64,000 nucleotides of DNA from [Mycobacterium] stephanolepidis (GTDB taxonomy: Bacteria > Actinomycetota > Actinomycetes > Mycobacteriales > Mycobacteriaceae). The stretch is from NCBI RefSeq assembly GCF_002356335.1, contig NZ_AP018165.1, forward strand, positions 2,108,001-2,172,000. The letters are read 5' to 3'. Positions 49,030 to 62,380 of this stretch are shown here, in pieces; position 1 is the first letter of the stretch, and each line of letters starts with the position of its first letter. A program made the translations under genes and the position numbers. The notes beneath the pieces were generated by a model. The model did not search any database. It was given only the letters and a program-made list of their open reading frames with translations, and was not told the DNA's origin.

Positions 49030-50576
49030 CGGGACTCCTGTGCCTGAGCAGATGGGTTGTCGGTCTGGATGCGCGTGGCCGGCCGATCGCTCGGGGCCAG
49101 GCTGTCGTGCGCGAGCAGGGCATCGGCACGTGAGAGCGATGGCCCGGAGGCGAACAGATCCAGAATCGACGAGGGGATGGTGAGTGCGGGCTTGTGCAGG
49201 CCGAGTGCCTCGAGGGTCTTGTCACCCTCGGCTTCGGTATCGATGCAGTACCGCACACCGGTATCGGATATCCACTGGTACCCGCCGGCGCCGCCCGGCT
49301 GCACCAGGTATCCGATGCCGGGAGCGATGGCGACCCGTGTCGGGGTTGCCGCGGAGGAGATCAGCTGCACGGTGTGCGCCGAGTCGGAAAGGGGCAGAAC
49401 CGAACCGGCAAGCAGTGACCACGAATCCGAGGAGGCGTCGGCCGTCCTGGTGAAGCGTGAGCACAGCACGGGATCCTCGGTGGCAGCCAGCGGCTTGACG
49501 GCGGCGCTGGGGAACACCCTGGTGTCGATCGCCGAAGACGTCGGCAGGTGTGCCGTCTGATCGGCGGTCAGCCGCGGTGGCTGTTCCAGACCGTATGAGT
49601 TCGCGTTGCGCAGTACCGATGCGATCACCGGTGAAACCTGTTGCACACCATCGGCTAGCACTGCGTAGTACACCGGAGTGTTATCGGTGGAGGAGCTCAC
49701 CAGCACCGAGCCGATGGGCGCCGCGACCGGCAACGCGTAGGCGGTAGGCGTCCCGGCTCCTTGGATAGGCGGAACTACGAGCGCCGGAGCCTCGGGAATC
49801 GCGTTGAGTAGACGAGTAGTCACGGGGCGCACGGCAGGCGGTGCGGTGAGGCCCAGTGCGCTCGTGACGGCGACGTCACCGAGGTTGAGCGCGCTGCGCT
49901 TCCCGTCCCACAGCAGCCAGGTGCCCGCGTCGGAGGACACCACCGCAGCACGGTCGCGGGGGAGGTCGAAGGCCTTGTCCCCACTGGTGTCCAAGGCTCC
50001 GGCGATCACGGTTACCGCGCGGTTTTCGCTGGACTCGCACACCGCCCATGCGGCATCGGTGCTCTTGGCCTGCACCATGCGCTCCGGTGCGCCCGGAATG
50101 CCGATCAGGTTTCCGCGCGGAAACTGGTCGAGCTGAGTGCTTTTGACCATCGTCGGGTCGACGGCCTTGCCTGCGATGAGACGGGCCGAGGTGAGGTTGA
50201 GCACCGGGTGCAGGTTGTCACCCACCCGGACATAGAGCGCCGCGGTCGACCGGTCGGCCAGCACCGGATCGGTGCCGGCGATACCGGAGGGGCGCAGCAG
50301 GCTGAAGACGAAGCACCCGACAATTCCGGTGACGACGATGACGGCGCCCATGCTGAATGCGCGGGATTGGGTACGCAGCGGATCAACGAGCATCCGAGCG
50401 TCGTGCAACGCGACACCAGAGGCTATGCGCCGCATGACAAATCGCCATCCGGTGACTTGATGCCCGGTGACGAACCCGCGACGGTACTTCAGTGGTTCGG
50501 GGTTCTCACTGGCCGGAGTGCGTGATGCGAAGGCCCGGCGCTCGGAGTTCGCGTTGTTGTCTCGGTTATCGCTCAT
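49026..50576 (-). CDS. eccB3: ESX-3 core component EccB3
   Basis: A 516-aa single-pass membrane protein of the ESX-3 core complex. A polar N-terminus with [20 protein letters not shown] precedes one helix at about 75-94 ([20 protein letters not shown]). The large periplasmic domain begins with [20 protein letters not shown] and [19 protein letters not shown], and has the repeated beta modules typical of EccB, with [20 protein letters not shown] near the C-terminus. The start overlaps the eccA3 stop and the stop overlaps eccC3. Confidence 0.95.
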
Positions 50577-52435
50577 TTCTGGACCGACGTCCCGGGAGCC
50601 GACAGTCCGAGGCCGGCGACGATGGCCTCCACCGATGCCTGAACGTCCTCGACGGTGACGGTCATGAGGTCGTCGTCGCTGAATTCTTCGGCGCCTGAGT
50701 TGTCAAGGCGGTGTTCACGTTCCTCCTCGGAGCGTTCCACGACGTTACGGACGAATCGACCGTTACCGGCGACGTCGATGCTGCGGCGTGCGATGCCGCG
50801 GGTATCTGGAGCCTCTGCCGCACACATCGCGGAGAAGGCGGTGAGCAGCTCGGCAGCGGCGCCCTCGTCGAACTTGCTGTCGCGCACAGATGCCATCGCC
50901 GATGCGATTTCGACGAGCTCCGGCGGTGCGTACGAGGGGAATTCGATGGACCGCGTGAAACGGGAGCGCAGACCCTCGTTGGTGTCGAGGAACTGGTCCA
51001 GCTCGGCGCGGTATCCGGCGACGATCACGACCAGACGGTCGCGGTCGTTTTCCATCCGGGCCAGCAGGGTGTCGATGGCAACGAGACCGAAGTCATTCTT
51101 GGCGCCGGTGGACACCAACGCGTATGCCTCATCGAGGAACAGCACGCCGTCGAGCGCGCTGTCGATGACGGCGTTGGTCTTGGCTTCGGTCTCACCGATG
51201 TGCTGACCGATGAGGTCGGCACGGTGTACCTCGCGAACGTTCTCGCGCTTGAGAAGCCCCAAGCCGCAATAGATCTTGGCGACCACACGGGCGATGGTGG
51301 TCTTACCGGTGCCGGGGGGGCCCGCGAACACCAGGTGGTGGGTGCGGTGGCCGACGGCAAGTCCGCGGTCCTGGCGCCGTAGTGCCATCGCCACAGAACT
51401 CTTGAGTCGCGAGACCTGGTCCTTCACCTGCTCCAGGCCGATGAATTCGCTGAGCTGTTGCTCGGCCTCTGCCAGCAGGATCGCCTTGCGCTCGTGAGCC
51501 TCAGGATCGATGAAATCCTCTTCGGTGGGCTCGGTTTCAGGATCCCACGGATCGGTACGGGCAGCGATACGCGCGGCTGTCGTGGTGTGCAGACCCACGC
51601 TCGGATCGGTGAGCGCATGCTCAATCTCGGTGTTCTCCGGATTGGCCGCGTACAGATCCTGGAGCACCTCGGTCGCGGTCTCTTCGTCGCCGTGGTGGCG
51701 CAGGTTGAGCGCCTTGGCCAGTGCGCCGTCGGTGGCTGCCACTTCGATGGGACCGCTGGGGTCTTCGAGGTAGGAGAGGGCGGGATTGACCATGCCGAGC
51801 TTGGCGAGCGCAATACCCAGGGTGATCCGTACGGCGTGGGACGTGGTGGGGTCCAACGACGCGTCGGTGACAACCGGGGTCAGCAGCGTGACGACATCGG
51901 ACCAACGTTCGGCCCGGTTCTGCATGGCGACAGCTGCCCAGCGGGCGTTGAACCACCCGGGGCGTCGCTCGGTGACAGCGGCTATCAGCTCGGCGGCCTT
52001 GACGTAATCACCCTTGTCCACGAGGGCCGCCGCGTAGGCGAGGTGATAGTCGTTGGGTCCGCTGGCACGGAACTCTAGGTAGAGCCCGGAGTCGTAGAGG
52101 AAGGTGAGGTCGCCCGGGTGCAGGTTCACCGCATGCTGAAGATGCCCAGCGGTCGCCGCAGTCTCGGAAATCGCTTCCAGGACGTCGATGGTGGCGCCCC
52201 CGGAGGCTGCCAGACCGACCCAGACATCACAGTGGTCTTGAGCGGTTCGGCACAGCGAAGTGAAGCCGTAACGCGCCGCTGGCAAATCTGCGGGACGTCG
52301 CCTGTCATTGACGGAGAGACCAAGAGCCCGGCAACAGGTTGCGAAGCGGCTCTCTAGTTCGGGATCTATGCGGGCTGACGGATTCACCGCCGGCGCCGCA
52401 CGGTCCAGCTGGCCAACTCGTTCACGAATATCCAC
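50573..52435 (-). CDS. eccA3: ESX-3 AAA+ ATPase EccA3
   Basis: A 620-aa cytosolic AAA+ ATPase (CbxX/CfqX type) with an N-terminal TPR-like domain of about 270 residues. Walker A is FAGPPGTGKTTIARVVAK (about 370), Walker B is LDGVLFLDEAYALV, and arginine-finger region NEGLRSRFTRSIEFPSY follows. EccA proteins help release PE-PPE proteins from EspG. The start is GTG at 52435 with AAGGG about 6 nt upstream. An in-frame TAA lies immediately before it and ends an 81-codon leader frame. First gene of the ESX-3 operon; an IdeR-like box lies about 290 bp upstream. Confidence 0.95.
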   Translation of the reverse strand: MDIRERVGQLDRAAPAVNPSARIDPELESRFATCCRALGLSVNDRRRPADLPAARYGFTSLCRTAQDHCDVWVGLAASGGATIDVLEAISETAATAGHLQHAVNLHPGDLTFLYDSGLYLEFRASGPNDYHLAYAAALVDKGDYVKAAELIAAVTERRPGWFNARWAAVAMQNRAERWSDVVTLLTPVVTDASLDPTTSHAVRITLGIALAKLGMVNPALSYLEDPSGPIEVAATDGALAKALNLRHHGDEETATEVLQDLYAANPENTEIEHALTDPSVGLHTTTAARIAARTDPWDPETEPTEEDFIDPEAHERKAILLAEAEQQLSEFIGLEQVKDQVSRLKSSVAMALRRQDRGLAVGHRTHHLVFAGPPGTGKTTIARVVAKIYCGLGLLKRENVREVHRADLIGQHIGETEAKTNAVIDSALDGVLFLDEAYALVSTGAKNDFGLVAIDTLLARMENDRDRLVVIVAGYRAELDQFLDTNEGLRSRFTRSIEFPSYAPPELVEIASAMASVRDSKFDEGAAAELLTAFSAMCAAEAPDTRGIARRSIDVAGNGRFVRNVVERSEEEREHRLDNSGAEEFSDDDLMTVTVEDVQASVEAIVAGLGLSAPGTSVQK

Positions 52436-52832: not shown

Positions 52833-53546
52833 ATGCCGAGCACAGTGATGCAACCGACACGCGGATGGCAGGGCGCGGTTCTCAAATTGTTCCGAGCCGG
52901 CGATTTCCAGCTAACAGTGACCGGTCGGCGCGAGCTGACCGACAACTATGTGAGGCTCAGCTTCTCCGCCGGCGGCCTGCTGCAGGACCGAGACATTCAT
53001 CCGACCATGTGGATCCGGTTGTGGTTCTCGGATGGGGAGAAGCTGCACCAGCGCGGATACACGCTGGTCAACCCGGATCCGCGGGCCGATACCGTCGATA
53101 TCGAATTCGCGCTGCACGACGGGCTGGCGGCACGCTGGGCACAGGCGGCCCTGGTGGGCGACACCATCGAGGCCACCGTGTTGGGCAGCCACTTCGAACT
53201 GCCCGTTCCGGCTCCGCGGGGATACGTCATCGTCGGCGACAGCGCGTCTCTGCCCGCGATCAACTCCCTGCTGGAAGCAATCGGCGACAGCCCGGCCACG
53301 GTTTTCCTGGAGGCCGCGCACGAGAGCGACAAGACGCTGCCGGTGAATGGGAATGCCGTCTGGGTGGATCGCCATGGCGACCCATCGCTGGTTCAGGTGG
53401 TGTGTGAGGCGGCCTTCGATGCCCCCGATTTCTTCGGGTGGGTGGCATGCGACACCCGGACCACTCGCGAGGTTGCGCAAGTCCTCAAGGATCACTACGG
53501 CATTCCGCGCAGGGCGATGAAAGCCCAGGCCTACTGGATGGCCTGA
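52833..53546 (+). CDS. Siderophore-interacting protein (ViuB/SIP family flavin reductase)
   Basis: A 237-aa FAD-binding protein of the siderophore-interacting family, which reduces ferric siderophore to release iron in the cytoplasm. The FAD motif is RGYTLVNPDPRADTVDIEF (about residues 70-88), followed by LHDGLAARWAQAA and the NAD(P)H domain with GYVIVGDSASLPAINSLLEA; the C-terminus is the family-typical HYGIPRRAMKAQAYWM. An IdeR box lies 30 bp upstream and GGAGG sits 10 nt before the ATG. Divergent from ESX-3, it probably handles ferric mycobactin or carboxymycobactin. It is shorter than IrtA's N-terminal SIP domain but has the same fold. Confidence 0.9.
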   Translation: MPSTVMQPTRGWQGAVLKLFRAGDFQLTVTGRRELTDNYVRLSFSAGGLLQDRDIHPTMWIRLWFSDGEKLHQRGYTLVNPDPRADTVDIEFALHDGLAARWAQAALVGDTIEATVLGSHFELPVPAPRGYVIVGDSASLPAINSLLEAIGDSPATVFLEAAHESDKTLPVNGNAVWVDRHGDPSLVQVVCEAAFDAPDFFGWVACDTRTTREVAQVLKDHYGIPRRAMKAQAYWMA

Positions 53547-54209: not shown

Positions 54210-54976
54210 GTGGCCGCTGCCGAGCCCACGCCATTGCGCCGCCCGCGTGCCGATCAGGCGCGACTGGTGGCCGATGTGTTGCGTCATCAGATCCACGCCG
54301 GTGCATACGCCGACGGCGGCCTACCGAGCGAGCAGGACCTGGCCGCGGAGTTCTTCGTTTCGCGCAACACGGTCCGCGAGGCGCTGACGACGCTGAAAGA
54401 AGAAGGCCTCATCGAGCGGGGGCCGCGTACCGGCACCCACGTGGCGCTACGTAAATACGAGCACGGACTGGACGCGCTACTGGGGCTGAAAGAGACATTC
54501 AAGGGATACTGCGAGGTCTGGAACGAGGTTCGCGTCATTCAGGAGGTGAACGCGCCTCCTGCGGTCGCGCATAGATTGCGCCTCGATCCCGGCGCGCGCG
54601 TCATCTTCATCGAGAGGCTGCGATACCTCGGAGATCTACCGCTGAGTCTGGACAAGACCTATCTGACCTCTGACGTGGGGGAGGTCTGACCTCTGACGTG
54701 GGGGAGGCGGTCATCGAGCATCAGCTCGAGAGCAATGACGTCTTCGCCCTCATCGAGCGCGTCACAGGGCGCAGGTTGGGATCGGCCAACCTGGCGCTGG
54801 AGGCAGTCTCGGCGGATTCGCATTCGGCTGCGACGTTGCAGGTACCCGATAGCGCGCCACTGCTGCTCCTGGAACGACTGACCCACCTCGACGACGGGAC
54901 CCCCGTCGACCTCGAGTACATCAGAATGTGCGGTGATCGAATCACTTTGCGCAGCAATCTATTAAGGGATATCTGA
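54210..54976 (+). pseudogene. GntR/HutC-family regulator disrupted by a frameshift
   Basis: The GTG start at 54210 (GGAGG 4 nt upstream) opens an N-terminal GntR winged helix: ADQARLVADVLRHQIHAGAY, LPSEQDLAAEFFVSRNTVRE, LTTLKEEGLIERGPRTGTHV. The UTRA ligand-binding domain then begins (VNAPPAVAHRLRLDPGARVI, FIERLRYLGDLPLSLDKTYL) but stops at 54687-54689 after ...YLTSDVGEV. The missing part continues in another frame from about 54693 to 54976: GEAVIEHQLESNDVFALIE, LLLLERLTHLDDGTPVDLEY, then the stop. An exact 23-bp tandem duplication causes the break. Without it the protein would be 247 aa, the family norm. The regulator sits 8 bp before the ferredoxin gene, so it probably controlled that operon. 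Confidence 0.88.
54662..54707 (+). repeat. 23-bp exact tandem duplication inside the GntR gene
   Basis: Bases 54662-54684 are repeated exactly at 54685-54707. The unit starts TCTGACC and ends GGGGGAGG. As 23 is not a multiple of three, the second copy shifts the frame and brings in a TGA. Removing either copy restores an uninterrupted 247-codon GntR gene. Confidence 0.97.
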
Positions 54977-54984
54977 GGCTTCTC

Positions 54985-55212
54985 ATGACACTGGTCAACA
55001 ACCGTATCGACGTTCCCGTCACCATCGACGAGTCGCTCTGCATCGAAGGCTGCACGTTGTGTGTTGACATCTGCCCACTGGACTCGCTGGCCATCAATCC
55101 CGAAAACGGCAAGGCATTCATGCATGTCGATGAGTGCTGGTACTGCGGACCCTGCGCGGCCCGCTGTCCCACCGGTGCGGTCACCGTCAACATGCCCTAT
55201 CTCATCCGTTAA
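54985..55212 (+). CDS. Two-cluster [4Fe-4S] ferredoxin-like protein (AprB-like)
   Basis: A 75-aa protein with two iron-sulfur cluster motifs. The first is C-x3-C-x2-C-x3-CP (CIEGCTLCVDICP) and the second is the standard C-x2-C-x2-C-x3-CP (CWYCGPCAARCP). The pattern recalls the beta subunit of adenylylsulfate reductase and related small electron carriers that dock to FAD subunits. It should pass electrons to or from the flavoprotein at 58238-60919, four genes downstream in the same operon. ATG 54985 lies 8 bp after the GntR remnant. Confidence 0.83.
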   Translation: MTLVNNRIDVPVTIDESLCIEGCTLCVDICPLDSLAINPENGKAFMHVDECWYCGPCAARCPTGAVTVNMPYLIR

Positions 55213-55225
55213 GTCAGGACAGCTC

Positions 55226-56623
55226 ATGAACAGAACAGCCCTTCTCTCCGCCCTCCTTCTCACCCTCGTCGCCGGCTGCTCCCTGGATTCCGGGTCCGGC
55301 TCTGACAATGACGTGACAGTCGTCGTCGGATATCAGTCCAAGACCATCAACACCGTGACCGCGGGAACGCTGCTGCGTGCCCAGGGCTACCTCGAGAAGA
55401 GGCTCGCCGAGGCCGGGTCGCGCACCGGGACCAAGTACACGGTGCAGTGGCAGGACTACGACACCGGAGCACCGATCACCGCGCAGATGCTCGCCGAGAA
55501 GATCGACATCGGCTCGATGGGCGACTATCCGCTGCTGATCAACGGATCCAAGACTCAGGCCAATGAGAAGGCACGTACCGAACTCGTGTCGATCACCGGC
55601 TACAACGCCAAGGGCGCACTCAACATGGTTGTAGTGCCACCGAATTCACCGATCACCACTTTGCCCGAACTGAAGGGAAAGAAGGTGTCCGCGAGTGTGG
55701 GCTCGGCGGGGCACGGCACGTTGGTGCGCGCGCTGCGCAACGAGGGGCTCGACCCGACCAAGGATGTCGAGGTGTTGAACCAGCAGCCACAGGTCGGGGC
55801 CTCGGCACTGGAATCCGGTCAGGTGCAGGCATTGTCACAGTTCGTGGCATGGCCGGGTCTGCTGGTCTTCCAGAAGAAGGCCACGCTGCTCTATGACGGT
55901 GCCGAGCTGAACGTTCCCACCTTCCATGGTGTGGTGGTGCGCCGCGACTACGTCAAGCAGCATCCCGAGGTGCTGGACGCCTTCCTGCAGGCTCAGCTCG
56001 ACGCAACCGACTTCATCCACGAGAAGTCCCTCGAGGCCGCGCGCCTCGTCGCCGAGGGTAGCGGCCTACCTCAGGAGGTGGTGTATCTCTACAACGGGCC
56101 CGGTGGCACATCGTTCGATACCACCCTCAAACCCTCGCTCATCGAGGCCTTCAAAAGCGATGTGCCCTACCTGAAATCGATCGGTGACTTCGCCGATCTC
56201 AACATCGACCAATTCGTGCAGGACGGACCGCTGCGCCAGGCCTACACGACGCGCGCCAAGAACTACGAAACCGAACTGGCCGCCAAGGTGAATCCGCTGG
56301 TGCTACAGCCGGCCGCCGGGGCAGATCCGGGTCAAGCCGCCGAAATCTGGTTCGAGGGTAAGGATTCCACACAGGTGTATGCGACGGCGCAGGAGCTGTT
56401 GAAGGCAGTCAACGCAGCGAACGTGTCTGGCCAGAAGATTCGCGCCGCCTATGTCTCAGATGCGGAGTTGGGTACGCGGTGGTTCGCCGATCATGCCTGG
56501 TGGGTCCGGGATTCGGCCGGTCTGCATCCGTTCACCACCAATGCGGGCGCCACCCGATACACCTCCACCCACGCCGGCGCGACGCCCTTGGATTACGCAC
56601 AGGCGCTGGCGGCGGCATCGTGA
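55226..56623 (+). CDS. ABC transporter substrate-binding lipoprotein (sulfonate/nitrate type, long form)
   Basis: A 465-aa exported protein with a lipobox (LLLTLVAGC) after a short hydrophobic stretch. The binding domain has SsuA/NMT1 features: VVGYQSKTINTVTAG, AQMLAEKIDIGSMGDYPLLI, LPELKGKKVSASVGSAGHGT and ALESGQVQALSQFVAWPGLL. It is about 130 residues longer than usual: after residue 360 an extra C-terminal region appears (IWFEGKDSTQVYATAQELLK, RWFADHAWWVRDSAGLHPF), not seen in the ssuA product in this same window. The ligand is unknown. It sits between the ferredoxin and permease genes; its stop overlaps the permease GTG. Confidence 0.85.
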   Translation: MNRTALLSALLLTLVAGCSLDSGSGSDNDVTVVVGYQSKTINTVTAGTLLRAQGYLEKRLAEAGSRTGTKYTVQWQDYDTGAPITAQMLAEKIDIGSMGDYPLLINGSKTQANEKARTELVSITGYNAKGALNMVVVPPNSPITTLPELKGKKVSASVGSAGHGTLVRALRNEGLDPTKDVEVLNQQPQVGASALESGQVQALSQFVAWPGLLVFQKKATLLYDGAELNVPTFHGVVVRRDYVKQHPEVLDAFLQAQLDATDFIHEKSLEAARLVAEGSGLPQEVVYLYNGPGGTSFDTTLKPSLIEAFKSDVPYLKSIGDFADLNIDQFVQDGPLRQAYTTRAKNYETELAAKVNPLVLQPAAGADPGQAAEIWFEGKDSTQVYATAQELLKAVNAANVSGQKIRAAYVSDAELGTRWFADHAWWVRDSAGLHPFTTNAGATRYTSTHAGATPLDYAQALAAAS

Positions 56624-57498
56624 GTAGCCTGCCCATCGTTCAGGCGCGACCGCGAGTGGTCGCGACGGCCCCCGCAGGTGACCGGATCGGCGAGGCCGCT
56701 CATACCCGTCGGCAGGGTTCGCGATACCTCGCCTGGGGGATCCGGGCCTCGTCCGTTGCTGTGGCGGTACTGCTCTGGCAGCTCTTGACGGCAAACAAGG
56801 TGCGTTTCGGGCTGCGATTCGACACACTTCCCACGGTCACCGAGATCGTCTCCGCCCTCGCTAAACGTATTGGAACCGAGCAGTATTGGCTGGACCTCGG
56901 TCAGTCCACCATCCGGATTCTCACCGGGTTCGGCCTGGCGGCGATGCTTGGCGTCATCACCGGAATCTGGCTGGGGCGTTCCCCGCTGTTCGCGAACATC
57001 GTCGGCCCGCTCACCGAGTTGGCTCGCCCGATTCCGGCGATCGCGATCGTGCCGGTGGCCATCCTGTTGTTTCCCAGTGACGAGGCGGGGATCGTGTTCA
57101 TCACCTTTCTCGCGGCCTACTTTCCCATCATGGTGAGCACGCGGCACGCGGTGCGTGCCCTGCCCACGCTGTGGGAGGAGTCGGTCCGCACCCTGGGCGG
57201 CAGCCGTTGGGATGTGTTGCTTCGGGTGGTGCTGCCCGGCAGCCTTCCCGGGGTCTTCGGCGGTCTCTCGGTAGGCATCGGCGTCGCATGGATATGCGTG
57301 ATCTCCGCCGAAATGATCTCAGGGCGTTTGGGAGTCGGGTACCGGACGTGGCAGTCGTACACGGTGTTGGCCTACCCGGATGTGTTTGTCGGGATCATCA
57401 CCATCGGCGTTCTCGGATTCCTGACCTCGGCGGCCGTCGAGTTGGTCGGTCGCCGGGTGACGCGGTGGCTACCCCGCGCCGAGGAGGCACGCTCATGA
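56620..57498 (+). CDS. ABC transporter permease (SsuC/TauC-like)
   Basis: A 292-aa permease of the nitrate/sulfonate/taurine class. A hydrophilic N-terminus of about 40 residues precedes about six helices, starting with ASSVAVAVLLWQLLT. Typical segments are LARPIPAIAIVPVAILLFP and the EAA-type loop WEESVRTLGGSRWDVLLRVV. The GTG start overlaps the stop of the binding-protein gene (GTGA) and the stop overlaps the ATPase start (ATGA). Paralogous to ssuC at 29535 but clearly distinct. Confidence 0.87.
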   Translation: MSSLPIVQARPRVVATAPAGDRIGEAAHTRRQGSRYLAWGIRASSVAVAVLLWQLLTANKVRFGLRFDTLPTVTEIVSALAKRIGTEQYWLDLGQSTIRILTGFGLAAMLGVITGIWLGRSPLFANIVGPLTELARPIPAIAIVPVAILLFPSDEAGIVFITFLAAYFPIMVSTRHAVRALPTLWEESVRTLGGSRWDVLLRVVLPGSLPGVFGGLSVGIGVAWICVISAEMISGRLGVGYRTWQSYTVLAYPDVFVGIITIGVLGFLTSAAVELVGRRVTRWLPRAEEARS

Positions 57499-58238
57499 GT
57501 GCCTCCACCCTCGTTCTCGACGGGGTGACCCTCGGATACGGCGGCCGCACCGTGGTGAACCGTCTGAGTCTGACTGTGCGCCCTGCGGAGATTCTGGTCC
57601 TGACCGGACCTTCGGGTTGCGGCAAGTCCACCGTGCTCCGCGCTCTGGCCGGGCTGCTCGCACCCGACTCGGGCACCATTCACGCCGATGGCGAGAAGGT
57701 TGTCACCACCTCCCGGCACCGCGCCATGGTGTTCCAGGACAATGCGTTGTTGCCCTGGCGCACGGTGCAATCGAACGTGGAGCTGGCCCTCAAGCTGGGT
57801 GGTGTACCTCGCGCGGGGCGGCGCCAGGCGGCACAGACCTGGATCGATGACGTCGGTTTGACGGGCTTCGAGGACTACCTGCCCAAGAGCCTCTCGGGTG
57901 GCAAGCGCCAACGTGTTCAGTTGGCCCGCGGCCTGGCGGGCGCTCCACGTGCGGTCATGATGGACGAGCCGTTCGGAGCACTCGACGCCCAGACTCGCGC
58001 CAGCATGCAACGTCTGCTGATCGATACCTGGCGCAGCCATCCCACCACGGTGGTGTTCGTGACACACGACGTGGACGAGGCGCTGTTACTCGGCGATCGA
58101 ATCGCCGTTCTGGGGCGCGCGGGTCAGCCGCTGCGTGCGCTGCTGGATGTTCCCGATCCCCGTGAGGCCGATGGCGATCGGAGCGCGCTGCGCGCCGAAA
58201 TCCTGGCCGCACTGAACCATACGGAGCTTGTCGCCTGA
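57495..58238 (+). CDS. ABC transporter ATP-binding protein (SsuB/TauB-like)
   Basis: A 247-aa ABC ATPase. Walker A is LTGPSGCGKSTVLRAL, the Q-loop is VFQDNALLPWRTV, the signature is LSGGKRQRVQLARGL, Walker B is AVMMDEPFGALDAQTR and the H-loop is FVTHDVDEALLLGD. It belongs with the preceding permease and binding protein. Its TGA shares bases with the following ATG, so the flavoprotein is translationally coupled to the transporter. This supports an enzyme acting on the imported compound. Confidence 0.9.
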   Translation: MSASTLVLDGVTLGYGGRTVVNRLSLTVRPAEILVLTGPSGCGKSTVLRALAGLLAPDSGTIHADGEKVVTTSRHRAMVFQDNALLPWRTVQSNVELALKLGGVPRAGRRQAAQTWIDDVGLTGFEDYLPKSLSGGKRQRVQLARGLAGAPRAVMMDEPFGALDAQTRASMQRLLIDTWRSHPTTVVFVTHDVDEALLLGDRIAVLGRAGQPLRALLDVPDPREADGDRSALRAEILAALNHTELVA

Positions 58239-60919
58239 TGCAGATCCCTGAACTTGACAGTGCCATCCGGCTGGACTGTGACGTCCTGGTCATCGGCGGT
58301 GGAACCGCCGGGACCATGGCGGCGCTGACCGCGGCCGAGAACGGCGCCCAGGTGATTCTTCTGGAGAAGGCACACGTGCGGCACTCCGGTGCACTGGCGA
58401 TGGGTATGGATGGTGTGAACAACGCCGTCATTCCCGGCAAGGCCGAACCGGAGGACTACGTCGCGGAGATCACCCGCGCCAACGACGGCATCGTGAACCA
58501 GCGCACCGTGTACCAAACGGCGACACGCGGTTTCGCGATGGTGCAGCGGCTCGAGCGCTACGGGGTCAAGTTCGAGAAGGACGAGCACGGCGAATACGCC
58601 GTACGGCGCGTGCATCGATCGGGCTCCTATGTATTGCCGATGCCCGAGGGTAAGGACGTCAAGAAGGCGCTGTACCGCGTGCTGCGGCAGAAGTCGATGC
58701 GAGAGAAGATTCGCATCGAAAATCGCGTCATGCCGGTGCGGATACTCACCGATGAGGGGAGAGCAGTCGGCGCTGCGGGTTGCAATACCCGCACCGGTGA
58801 GTTCGTCACGGTCGGCGCGAAAGCGGTGATCCTGGCGACGGGTCCGTGTGGCCGCCTGGGTCTGCCCGCCTCCGGTTACCTGTACGGCACGTATGAGAAT
58901 CCGACCAATGCGGGGGACGGGTACGCGATGGCGTACCACGCCGGGGCCGAGCTGTCGGGCATCGAGTGCTTCCAGATCAATCCGCTCATCAAGGATTACA
59001 ACGGCCCGGCCTGTGCCTATGTGGCCAACCCATTCGGCGGCTATCAGGTGAACGCCCAGGGAGAGCGCTTCGTCGACTCCGATTATTGGTCCGGCCAGAT
59101 GATGTCCGAGGTCAAGAATGAAATCGAGTCCGCACGCGGTCCCATCTATCTCAAGGTGACTCACCTGCCGGATGAGACGTTGTCGGCGCTGGAGAGCATC
59201 CTGCACACCACCGAGCGACCCACCCGCGGCACCTTCCACGCCAACCGCGGACATGACTACCGCACCCATGACATCGAGATGCATATCTCCGAGATCGGTT
59301 TGTGTAGTGGTCATTCGGCATCGGGCGTATGGGTGGATGAGCATGCGCGCACCACGGTGCCCGGCCTGTACGCGGCGGGAGATCTGGCCTGCGTGCCGCA
59401 CAACTACATGATCGGCGCCTTCGTGTACGGGGATCTCGCCGGTGAGCATGCGGCCTCGACGCTTTCGAAAACGCCTGCACCGCTGGAATTCCCCGTTGAT
59501 CAGGTCAAGGAGGCGCATGAGCTGATCTACCGTCCGTTGCGCCATCCGGACGGCCCTCCGCAGCCTCAGGTCGAGTACAAGCTTCGCCGCTTCGTCAACG
59601 ACTATGTGGCCCCGCCGAAGACGGCGGCCAAGCTGTCATTGGCGGTACAGACATTTGAGCGGATGGCCGACGAGGTGGGTCAGATCGGTGCGCGCACCCC
59701 GCATGAGCTGATGCGGGCGGCCGAGGTGTCGTTCATCAGGGACTGCGCCGAGATGGCGGCACGCTCGTCATTGACTCGTACCGAATCACGGTGGGGCCTG
59801 TACCACGACAGGGCAGATCTGCCGGATCGTGACGACGAGAATTGGCGTTATCACCTCAACCTGCGTAAGACCGCCGACGGCGCCATGGACTTCGTGAAAC
59901 GGCCCGTCGCAACATATTTCGTCCCGGTTCCGGGTCTCGACGACCTGCCGTCGGGGGAGACCGATCCGATTCCGGTGCATCAACCCGAACTGCTGGGCGG
60001 AAAAGCGCCCGCGGCCCGGATCTCGAATGTGATCGCCGCGGAGGCCGAGCAGCCGCCGTCGCCGCGAATCGCGGCGGTGTTGTCCTTGGAGGCGCCCACG
60101 GTCGAGGAGCTGCTGCAGTACCTCGCCGACGACGATCCGGGCGTGCGCCGCACCGCGATCGCCTCGCTCACCGAGCACATCCCCGCGGGTTACGAGGCGG
60201 CCTTGTTGAATGCGTTGGGGGACAGCGATGCGTCCGTGCGTCGCACCGCTGCCGACGGAGTGCGTGAGCTCGTCGAGGTTCTCGAGGACCCCGCCGCGAT
60301 TGGCCATCACGTCGGCGCGTCCGACCCCTTGGTGCGCAGCTCCGCGCTGTACGTGGCGAGTGCCCGGAAGGTCGGCGATCCGGCCGCCTACGTCGCGTCG
60401 GTACGCGACTCAGATCATCGGGTCCGAATCGAAGCCGTACGCGCCCTGGTGTCCGTGGACGACGCGGTGTCCATCGCCACCGCTGCCGAGGATGAGAACC
60501 GCGAGGTGCGGATTGCCGTGGCCAACGGGCTTGCGAAGTTGGCCGCCGGTAGCGCGACGGTGCGGGTGCTGGTGCGCGACCGCGACCCCTTGGTGCGGGC
60601 CGCGGCGTTGACGGCTGTCGGTGCGCTGGGAGTCGACGATCAGATCTTCGATGCCGTCCAGGAAGCACTGAAGGCTCCGGCCTGGCAGATCCGTCAGGGT
60701 GCGGTGCGCGCCTTGGCCGGAGCGGATCCGGGGCAGGCCGTGCCGGCGCTGGCGCGCGCGCTGGACGATCCGCATCTGGATGTACGTAAGTCGGCCGTGC
60801 TGAGCCTGAGCCAGTGGGCCTCGACGGAGCCCACCGTCCGTGACGCGCTGACCGGTGCGTTGCAAGATGGCGACGCTGACGTGAGAGCCTATGCGCGACA
60901 AGCACTTGCAGCCGGCTGA
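58238..60919 (+). CDS. AprA/fumarate-reductase-like flavoprotein with C-terminal HEAT-repeat domain
   Basis: An 893-aa probable cytoplasmic oxidoreductase. Residues about 10-560 are an FAD-dependent fumarate-reductase/succinate-dehydrogenase-like subunit: DVLVIGGGTAGTMAALTAAE, LLEKAHVRHSGALAMGMDG, VILATGPCGRLGLP, PTNAGDGYAMAYHAGAEL and LYAAGDLACVPHNYMIGAF, closer to adenylylsulfate reductase alpha subunits than to SdhA. A linker leads to residues about 620-893, which repeat a roughly 30-residue HEAT/PBS-lyase-like unit about nine times (DDDPGVRRTAIASL, DSDASVRRTAADGV, DPLVRAAALTAVGA, DPHLDVRKSAVLSLSQW). That fusion is unusual and may be a docking platform. The ferredoxin and ABC transporter are in the same operon. 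Substrate unknown; an organosulfur compound is a guess. Confidence 0.83.
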   Translation: MQIPELDSAIRLDCDVLVIGGGTAGTMAALTAAENGAQVILLEKAHVRHSGALAMGMDGVNNAVIPGKAEPEDYVAEITRANDGIVNQRTVYQTATRGFAMVQRLERYGVKFEKDEHGEYAVRRVHRSGSYVLPMPEGKDVKKALYRVLRQKSMREKIRIENRVMPVRILTDEGRAVGAAGCNTRTGEFVTVGAKAVILATGPCGRLGLPASGYLYGTYENPTNAGDGYAMAYHAGAELSGIECFQINPLIKDYNGPACAYVANPFGGYQVNAQGERFVDSDYWSGQMMSEVKNEIESARGPIYLKVTHLPDETLSALESILHTTERPTRGTFHANRGHDYRTHDIEMHISEIGLCSGHSASGVWVDEHARTTVPGLYAAGDLACVPHNYMIGAFVYGDLAGEHAASTLSKTPAPLEFPVDQVKEAHELIYRPLRHPDGPPQPQVEYKLRRFVNDYVAPPKTAAKLSLAVQTFERMADEVGQIGARTPHELMRAAEVSFIRDCAEMAARSSLTRTESRWGLYHDRADLPDRDDENWRYHLNLRKTADGAMDFVKRPVATYFVPVPGLDDLPSGETDPIPVHQPELLGGKAPAARISNVIAAEAEQPPSPRIAAVLSLEAPTVEELLQYLADDDPGVRRTAIASLTEHIPAGYEAALLNALGDSDASVRRTAADGVRELVEVLEDPAAIGHHVGASDPLVRSSALYVASARKVGDPAAYVASVRDSDHRVRIEAVRALVSVDDAVSIATAAEDENREVRIAVANGLAKLAAGSATVRVLVRDRDPLVRAAALTAVGALGVDDQIFDAVQEALKAPAWQIRQGAVRALAGADPGQAVPALARALDDPHLDVRKSAVLSLSQWASTEPTVRDALTGALQDGDADVRAYARQALAAG

Positions 60920-60994: not shown

Positions 60995-62380
<1,386 letters not shown>

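Follow-up and report, generated by a model that had tools for sequence, protein, structure and literature searches.

A six-gene operon of [Mycobacterium] stephanolepidis was analysed within a 64,000-nucleotide stretch of contig NZ_AP018165.1 (positions 2,108,001 to 2,172,000, forward strand), referred to below as the window. It encodes a GntR/UTRA regulator, a ferredoxin with two [4Fe-4S] clusters, an ATP-binding cassette (ABC) importer composed of a substrate-binding protein (SBP), a permease and an ATPase, and a flavin adenine dinucleotide (FAD) subunit fused to HEAT repeats, here called the flavoprotein (Table 1). The first-pass annotation, made from the sequence alone, had described a tight operon with overlapping starts and stops from the transporter onward. 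All six genes were confirmed in the window with their order kept in relatives, and the open reading frame (ORF) coordinates gave overlaps of 4, 4 and 1 bases from the SBP gene through the permease and ATPase genes to the flavoprotein gene.

Table 1. Operon features and their positions in the window
Feature	Position	Strand	Remarks
GntR/UTRA regulator, part 1	54210..54689	+	Pfam GntR 61.8 bits, start of UTRA; GTG start at 54210; stop made by the duplication
23-bp tandem duplication breaking the GntR frame	54664..54707	+	21-bp identical copies at 54664 and 54687
GntR/UTRA regulator, part 2 (end of UTRA), another frame	54698..54976	+	UTRA 52.6 bits
Two-[4Fe-4S] ferredoxin, AprB-like core without the AprB C-terminal tail	54985..55212	+	75 aa, eight Cys
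Lipoprotein SBP, SsuA/TauA fold	55226..56623	+	
NosL-like C-terminal domain of the SBP (residues 368-451)	56327..56578	+	PF05573, weak match
ABC permease, BPD_transp_1; NtrB/TauC/SsuC type	56620..57498	+	
ABC ATPase, TauB/SsuB/NrtD type	57495..58238	+	
AprA-like FAD subunit fused to HEAT repeats (NF010374), 893 aa	58238..60919	+	
FAD_binding_2 domain, residues 15-386, with AprA-type Asn61 and His359	58280..59395	+	Pfam and alignment
HEAT-repeat domain, residues about 609-893	60062..60916	+	HEAT_2 102.6 bits; helical pairs, predicted local distance difference test (pLDDT) mostly >90

A scan of named genomes yielded at least 587 confirmed relatives, and the best 80 loci, all actinobacterial, were examined. 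Gene order was counted at the 75 loci with at least 4.3 kb of upstream sequence, the five with less being left out. The six genes lay in the order GntR, ferredoxin, SBP, permease, ATPase, flavoprotein within 4.6 kb at 72 of these loci, and at the other three the same order was spread by inserts. This order is far beyond chance, and the gene-neighbourhood survey suggested in the first pass returned a conserved neighbourhood. Median identity to the window was 89% for the flavoprotein and the ferredoxin, 78% for the permease and 75% for the ATPase; the SBP (68%), GntR (65%) and the HEAT repeats (59%) were less conserved. The flavin part shared 99% identity with a protein that carries the name Mycobacteroides chelonae. 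Besides the operon's own genes, no gene family occurred in more than 32 of the 80 loci when ORFs of at least 80 aa were selected by codon GC content; by this method the ATPase was recovered in just 21 loci and the ferredoxin fell below the length limit, and the presence of both genes rests on tblastn.

The nearest genome compared, G001, has 23% of sampled words in common with the window. A flavoprotein above the cut-off was found in 12 of 396 genomes of the phylum and in 83 of 301 genomes of the family of G001, both sets having been drawn evenly from larger groups. In the 301 genomes, 92 places matched the SBP at E <= 1e-70; 81 of them lay within 10 kb of a flavoprotein, with a median gap of 1.6 kb. 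The other 11 comprised nine candidates of the sulfatase type described below, one contig break (G689) and one fragment (G668). Conversely, the SBP was nearby in 81 of 84 flavoprotein genomes, the exceptions being G689 (contig break), G461 and G644. No relative was found among viral contigs, and carriage by viruses was set aside.

The broken regulator frame of the window (Table 1) had been taken in the first pass for a GntR remnant. As a general feature this was not borne out: ORFs from a single GntR cluster were recovered at 75 of the 80 relatives' loci, which suggests that the break is peculiar to this strain or to its assembly. G001 has one copy at the duplication site. Either GntR control of the operon has probably been lost in this strain, or the assembly is wrong there.

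Several loci departed from the common arrangement. In L157-L160 the order was GntR, flavoprotein, HEAT, ferredoxin, SBP, permease, ATPase; the flavoprotein match stopped near model position 572, the HEAT part was apparently separate, and the SBPs were sister to the sulfatase-linked clade described below. In G032 (C1:1343829-1346514) the flavoprotein was split in two, a TAA stop being present. The surroundings also varied. In the window, the operon is flanked by genes for a siderophore-interacting protein (52833-53546) and a chorismate-binding enzyme (61019-62380), and a type VII secretion system EccA-like ATPase gene lies on the minus strand at 50576-52435. At about 16-19 loci among L037-L116, unlike in the window, an efp/nusB-type block lay on one side of the operon and pyrR-pyrB on the other (genes named from sequence).

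The flavoprotein matched NCBIfam model NF010374 (PRK13800) over residues 1-891 with 1752.5 bits (cut-off 1196), and its Pfam domains were FAD_binding_2, Succ_DH_flav_C and HEAT repeats. The family is widespread, with 6148 of 7997 scored database candidates matching the flavin part at E <= 1e-40. It is not confined to this genome and already has its NCBIfam model, and no paper on the module was found in literature queries among which the wording 'reductive desulfation' was not included. The flavoprotein is not mentioned in the passages available of a Gordonia study on fluorotelomer compounds (PMC7661421).

NF010374 is an 'equivalog' named fumarate reductase/succinate dehydrogenase, and this name is misleading. 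That the protein is an ordinary enzyme of this kind, as in the public annotation of NF010374 and NF006131 members, has almost nothing to commend it beyond the annotation itself. E. coli SdhA residues His242, Arg286, His354 and Arg399, which we take to be catalytic, are absent in the six aligned members and replaced by Asn, a gap, Ile and Cys/Ala/Ser, respectively. The score with TIGR01812 was 160.3 bits against a cut-off of 567.3 bits, the other SdhA/FrdA models shown were likewise far under their cut-offs, and the operon is devoid of membrane-anchor genes. In a midpoint-rooted tree of 28 proteins, the row of A. fulgidus AprA being partial and long, the family formed a separate group adjoining the AprA/3'-phosphoadenylylsulfate (PAPS) reductase alpha rows (themselves supported at 100/99), and E. 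coli SdhA, FrdA and NadB lay across the root. The fork of the 18 family rows had a support of 92/94 and was not starred. SdhA/FrdA function was rejected on site residues, model cut-offs and tree together.

By this tree the family is a group of its own, sister to the alpha subunits of adenylylsulfate (APS) and PAPS reductases. The nearest solved chain, by sequence and by fold, was 8a8o_A, the PAPS reductase alpha subunit of M. thermolithotrophicus; the predicted model of the flavoprotein had a mean pLDDT of 78.3 and a predicted template modelling score of 0.58. AprA Asn74 was Asn in 7/7 aligned members, the corresponding Asn61 of the window was invariant in 50 rows, and His359 aligned with the His of the GGH stretch of PAPS reductase. 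Of the AprA site residues, Asn74 is kept; the adenine-side residues as well as Arg265 and Trp234, which are presumably sulfo/AMP-site residues, are not. Scores were also below both AprA cut-offs (TIGR02061, 142.3 against 641.75 bits; NF005331, 275.5 against 557 bits). With its APS site unconserved, the flavoprotein is not an APS reductase proper. The first-pass view that it resembles AprA rather than SdhA was upheld by the tree, the nearest chain and the missing SdhA residues, and no placement inside a characterised family with another substrate was found. The SaoA/SaoP/SaoX models scored far under their cut-offs, and no link to that system is claimed.

The ferredoxin, too, proved AprB-like as first annotated, having the eight Cys of AprB (invariant in 7/7 aligned members) and its Trp. 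This Trp, in an ECWxC motif, was present in all eight ferredoxin rows including Ilyobacter AprB, where it aligned with residue 42; it thus matches Trp42 of the PAPS reductase of Methanothermococcus thermolithotrophicus (MtPAPSR), for which a role in electron transfer has been proposed in passages of PMC10322725.

The SBP has the SsuA/TauA fold, fold matches covering residues 26-355, and an invariant lipobox-like Cys18. SsuA and TauA were its best solved relatives; its score with the SsuA_fam model was 133.4 bits, below the cut-off of 163.5 bits. PF05573 (NosL) was listed at an E limit of 5 for the C-terminal tail of all six SBPs compared (window and five from other phyla). It scored 27.9 and 24.1 bits in two relatives (gathering cut-off 24 bits) and 13.3-19.6 bits in the four others including the window, where the full-length protein gave 13.4 and the tail alone 19.0 bits. 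At E 0.01 it was unlisted for the SBPs of loci L142 and L144. In NosL, Met or Cys residues bind copper; none is conserved in the NosL-like tail, and no copper role is claimed for it.

Pocket positions were placed by alignment to TauA. According to passages of PMC6906117, TauA contacts the sulfonate through Gln30 and the main chain of Gly61, Gly79 and Thr132; its contacts to the amine are Glu106, Thr132 and Asp205. Q37 of the window SBP aligned with Gln30, and Gly81 and Gly99 were also kept; Asn133 stood at the site of Glu106, which is Glu in SsuA too, and His234 at the site of Asp205. Both replacements were found in 55/55 rows of an alignment that includes repeats of the window and some loci and in which the TauA row is misplaced at the Gln30 site. 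From the kept and the replaced residues, a ligand that carries an SO3-like head but lacks an ammonium group is expected.

As NrtA and CmpA scored about as high as SsuA by fold, the operon might import some other anion, and the family would then be an FAD/ferredoxin reductase with another chemistry. Folds of the SdhA kind are used for many reactions, and a chromate exporter gene lies near an Acinetobacter locus. Such a non-sulfur substrate is nevertheless quite improbable: the sister group of the flavoprotein is APS/PAPS reductase, sulfite exporters of the TauE/SafE type lie near 4 of 18 annotated loci, and a sulfatase and a SulP permease take the enzyme's place beside related importers, as set out below.

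The 18 annotated loci come from a plasmid collection with 52 records matching the flavoprotein, and were tallied by reading of their annotation tables; they place the module in proteobacteria and cyanobacteria as well. A further Variovorax record was without annotation and outside the 18. The Ilyobacter record served as outgroup; its operon is of the AprBA type and also encodes APS kinase and a subunit of sulfate adenylyltransferase. A ferredoxin and a HEAT-repeat protein were present at all 18 loci, the HEAT repeats being fused to the flavoprotein in Tsukamurella and separate elsewhere. The full importer was nearby in 15/18. A. caldus had the importer with an insertion sequence inside the SBP region, Nostoc just an SBP, and Mesorhizobium pMLa a different importer several kb off. 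On A. caldus pTcM1 (L140 2066-6325) the insertion is the ISL3-type ISAtc1, between the permease gene and a shortened SBP gene. A DUF971 (gamma-butyrobetaine hydroxylase-like) protein was encoded near 9/18 loci, one of them verified by Pfam, and an Mrp/NBP35 protein near 4/18, namely the four cyanobacterial ones. Genes for FdxA and ferredoxin-NADP reductase adjoined the module in Methylobacterium radiotolerans, and genes for FdxA and a large pyridine-nucleotide oxidoreductase lay near another locus; both sets are candidate electron suppliers of the pair. On plasmids of nodule or rhizobial isolates (L122, L123, L133, L035) the module was accompanied by DUF971-type and Crp/Fnr genes, and a role in symbiosis or at low oxygen is possible there.

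The substrate class was approached through importers lacking the flavoprotein, found by a search with the SBP alignment. Thirteen such actinobacterial loci were examined. At nine of them the importer was accompanied by GntR, a sulfatase and a SulP sulfate permease, with a formylglycine-generating enzyme (FGE) at eight of the nine; these nine form the sulfatase group used below, which excludes two loci on short contigs (L154, L156) and two with neither enzyme (L144, L148). The L144 importer has a melibiase/GH31-like gene nearby and its substrate is perhaps a sulfated glycoside; a TauE-like gene lies near the L148 importer. That related importers occur without the flavoprotein, and mostly with a sulfatase, is new here. 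Conversely, sulfatase, FGE and SulP were each found in 0/16 flavoprotein loci, and SulP and FGE in none of 80 further ones. The latter 80 contained one sulfatase-like stretch (L106), 31% identical, on the other strand and about 2 kb beyond the flavoprotein. Nine SBP places in the 301 genomes were 64-100% identical to a sulfatase-linked query; a sulfatase was seen in seven of them and two were on short contigs.

The sulfatase belongs to Pfam Sulfatase, and its nearest solved chains are arylsulfatases. A CTPTR motif was present in both sulfatases examined for it, and the three starts examined left no room for a signal peptide. On a Paraburkholderia plasmid (L175 11074-19145) the order GntR-SBP-permease-ATPase-arylsulfatase-FGE-SulP forms a hydrolytic twin of the window operon; its sulfatase is 71% identical to the mycobacterial one. 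A GyrB-like extra gene was found in 9/9 actinobacterial sulfatase-type loci (L142, L143, L145, L146, L147, L151, L152, L153, L155), encoding 640 aa in L142 and partially matched in L147; there was none in the Paraburkholderia locus table. A YeiH-like stretch (putative sulfate/sulfite exporter family) occurred in 5/16 flavoprotein loci and 1/80 others (L157-L161, L094), and in 0/9 sulfatase loci.

The pocket residues Q37, W75, D77, G81, G99, D100, N133, S160, A161, W209 and H234 were identical in 9/9 sulfatase-linked and 16/16 flavoprotein-linked SBPs. In this alignment the TauA row is shifted at the Glu106 site and reads Asn, SsuA still having Glu. An SBP tree, computed without TauA and the rows on short contigs and with L144, L148 and SsuA as long branches, required the sulfatase label to change at two points, and both clades that carry it were joined to flavoprotein-linked SBPs on starred branches. 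In one clade the nine actinobacterial sulfatase rows paired with four flavoprotein rows (98/99); in the other Paraburkholderia and Variovorax (98/91) stood beside Methylobacterium (99/92), the latter two being flavoprotein-linked. Since most of the importers without the flavoprotein are paired with a sulfatase and have a near-unchanged pocket, one importer type appears to feed either a sulfate-releasing hydrolase, accompanied by a sulfate permease, or the AprBA-like pair, near which sulfite exporters lie at some loci. Because the related importers serve a formylglycine-type sulfatase, the substrate class is probably a small organosulfur anion, and most likely a sulfate ester (R-O-SO3-). The first-pass proposal of an enzyme for an imported organosulfur compound is thereby kept as far as the AprBA-like pair, the sulfonate-type importer and the probable organosulfur substrate are concerned, and is refined by the sulfatase-linked importers towards sulfate esters rather than sulfonates.

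Taken together, the linkage of a conserved importer to an AprA-like flavoprotein, a two-cluster ferredoxin resembling AprB and HEAT repeats is best explained by uptake of an organosulfur anion, most likely a sulfate ester, followed by reductive release of the sulfur; a probability of roughly 0.5 is assigned to this reading. The reaction would be a ferredoxin-driven reductive cleavage of the ester to sulfite, for which the odds appear about balanced. In the proposed sequence, electrons from cellular ferredoxin or an NADPH route would reach FAD by way of the two [4Fe-4S] clusters and the conserved Trp, and N5 of the reduced flavin would attack the ester sulfur as AprA does on APS. For the AprA/PAPS-reductase reaction on the sulfo-anhydride, passages of PMC10322725 by the MtPAPSR authors propose that FAD N5 attacks the sulfur and the adduct decays to flavin-sulfite. 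Here, likewise, ROH would leave and sulfite would be released from the flavin-sulfite adduct, to enter ordinary sulfite reduction or be exported; ATP-dependent sulfate activation would be skipped, with no sulfate intermediate. The HEAT repeats might serve docking, and GntR would presumably tune the operon to supply. p-Nitrophenyl sulfate, used together with AST IV, is the sulfo donor in a system that regenerates PAPS (PMC10638397, in the passages available). As aryl sulfates can donate the sulfo group there, they should have a transfer potential of comparable size, and reduction to sulfite should lie within reach of ferredoxin. In G001, a PAPS_reduct-family gene adjoins a sulfite/nitrite reductase-family gene; read as CysH and SirA, the two would already cover APS reduction and provide an outlet for sulfite.

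The pair might instead run oxidatively, with sulfite either oxidised into a sulfo-conjugate or treated in the way sulfur oxidisers do by means of AprBA, and with the importer bringing the acceptor. Passages of PMC10322725 describe AprBA as reversible in dissimilatory organisms, and passages of PMC5069961 propose sulfite detoxification by AprBA for Pelagibacter. Oxidative use is nonetheless quite improbable: the AMP/APS-site residues are not kept, the ferredoxin-NADP reductase and FdxA neighbours point to reduction, and the exchange with a sulfatase would go unexplained.

Several observations weigh against reductive cleavage of an imported sulfate ester. In the literature searched, biochemistry or a phenotype for the flavoprotein family was absent. 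AprA Arg265 and Trp234 were Leu and Tyr in 7/7 aligned members, so that sulfo binding must differ from that of APS reductase; around the expected active site the model had a pLDDT <50, and no geometry was drawn from it. Two genomes, G461 (L171) and G644 (L172), have GntR, ferredoxin and flavoprotein with the importer not in view, and L144 and L148 have an importer with neither enzyme. The 71% identity of the two sulfatases means that the sulfatase cassette may be a single invention that moved, only the importer pairing being double. A TauE homologue was found in 0/16 and 0/80 actinobacterial flavoprotein loci, and as support the exporters near 4/18 loci are only suggestive. By kinship alone, the SBP is related to binders of sulfonate, taurine, nitrate and bicarbonate. 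Finally, residue 163 is Asp in 9/9 sulfatase-linked and His in 13/16 flavoprotein-linked SBPs, and residue 80 Ser in 9/9 and Thr in 12/16, respectively; the ligands of the two groups may differ.

The last point also speaks for reductive desulfonation, in which an imported sulfonate (R-CH2-SO3-) would be cut at the C-S bond to sulfite, the sulfatase-linked importers having changed specificity. It would agree with the SBP fold and its best solved relatives SsuA and TauA, with the kept sulfonate-binding Gln of TauA, and with sulfonate-type importers, flavin monooxygenases or a 3-mercaptopropionate dioxygenase near some loci. It is judged unlikely, though somewhat less so than oxidative use. The SBP tree joins sulfatase-linked to flavoprotein-linked SBPs at two places and most of their pocket residues are shared, the Asn and His replacements at TauA Glu106 and Asp205 are constant throughout the 55 rows, and a carbanion leaving group would make flavin attack on the sulfonate sulfur hard.

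We therefore tentatively propose, at a little below even odds, a reductive sulfatase: a flavoenzyme of the AprBA lineage that would cleave the S-O (or S-N) bond of imported organosulfates in actinobacteria, proteobacteria and cyanobacteria, with the reductive/hydrolytic interchange on one importer as its evolutionary signature. Known aerobic routes use oxygenases, or hydrolysis to sulfate followed by re-activation with ATP. If true, a reductive, sulfite-yielding route would represent a new type of reaction on organosulfates and carry the mechanism of APS reductase over to substrates other than nucleotides, and thousands of genes named fumarate reductase/succinate dehydrogenase would gain a function; the sulfatase/flavoprotein interchange provides a concrete substrate class. 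Most of the sulfur available in aerobic soils is in the form of sulfonates and sulfate esters (PMC3839906).

Among known systems, MtPAPSR (PDB 8a8o) is similar, as far as passages of PMC10322725 describe it, in its FAD alpha subunit of the sister group, its two-[4Fe-4S] beta subunit with the same Trp, the aligned Asn and His at the flavin and an assimilatory role outside sulfate respiration. It differs in keeping the equivalents of AprA Arg265 and Trp234, in its substrate loop and in its partners, which are ATP sulfurylase, APS kinase and PAP phosphatase, whereas the window operon has HEAT repeats and an importer. Dissimilatory AprBA shares the subunit types, FAD, the Fe-S wire and Asn74, but the window flavoprotein lies below both AprA cut-offs and has not kept the APS/AMP residues; Ilyobacter AprB has the C-terminal tail that the window ferredoxin lacks. 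The setting is different as well, G001 having ordinary CysH and sulfite reductase homologues. The isethionate assimilation of Rhodobacter capsulatus by nitrogenase-like and radical-SAM enzymes, according to passages of PMC11423573, likewise assimilates organosulfur without an oxygenase, but by unrelated enzymes. SsuABC and TauABC share the importer superfamily, the SBP fold and the sulfonate-binding Gln and Gly; in the window SBP the hinge Glu is replaced by Asn and TauA Asp205 by His, a NosL-like C-terminal domain is added, and the operon contains neither SsuD nor TauD. In AtsRBC-AtsA of Pseudomonas, the intact organosulfate is imported and its sulfur is freed in the cytoplasm by a sulfatase. 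Judged by this description, the importers of L142, L175 and other related loci look to be of this kind, whereas in the window the AprBA-like pair takes the place of the sulfatase.

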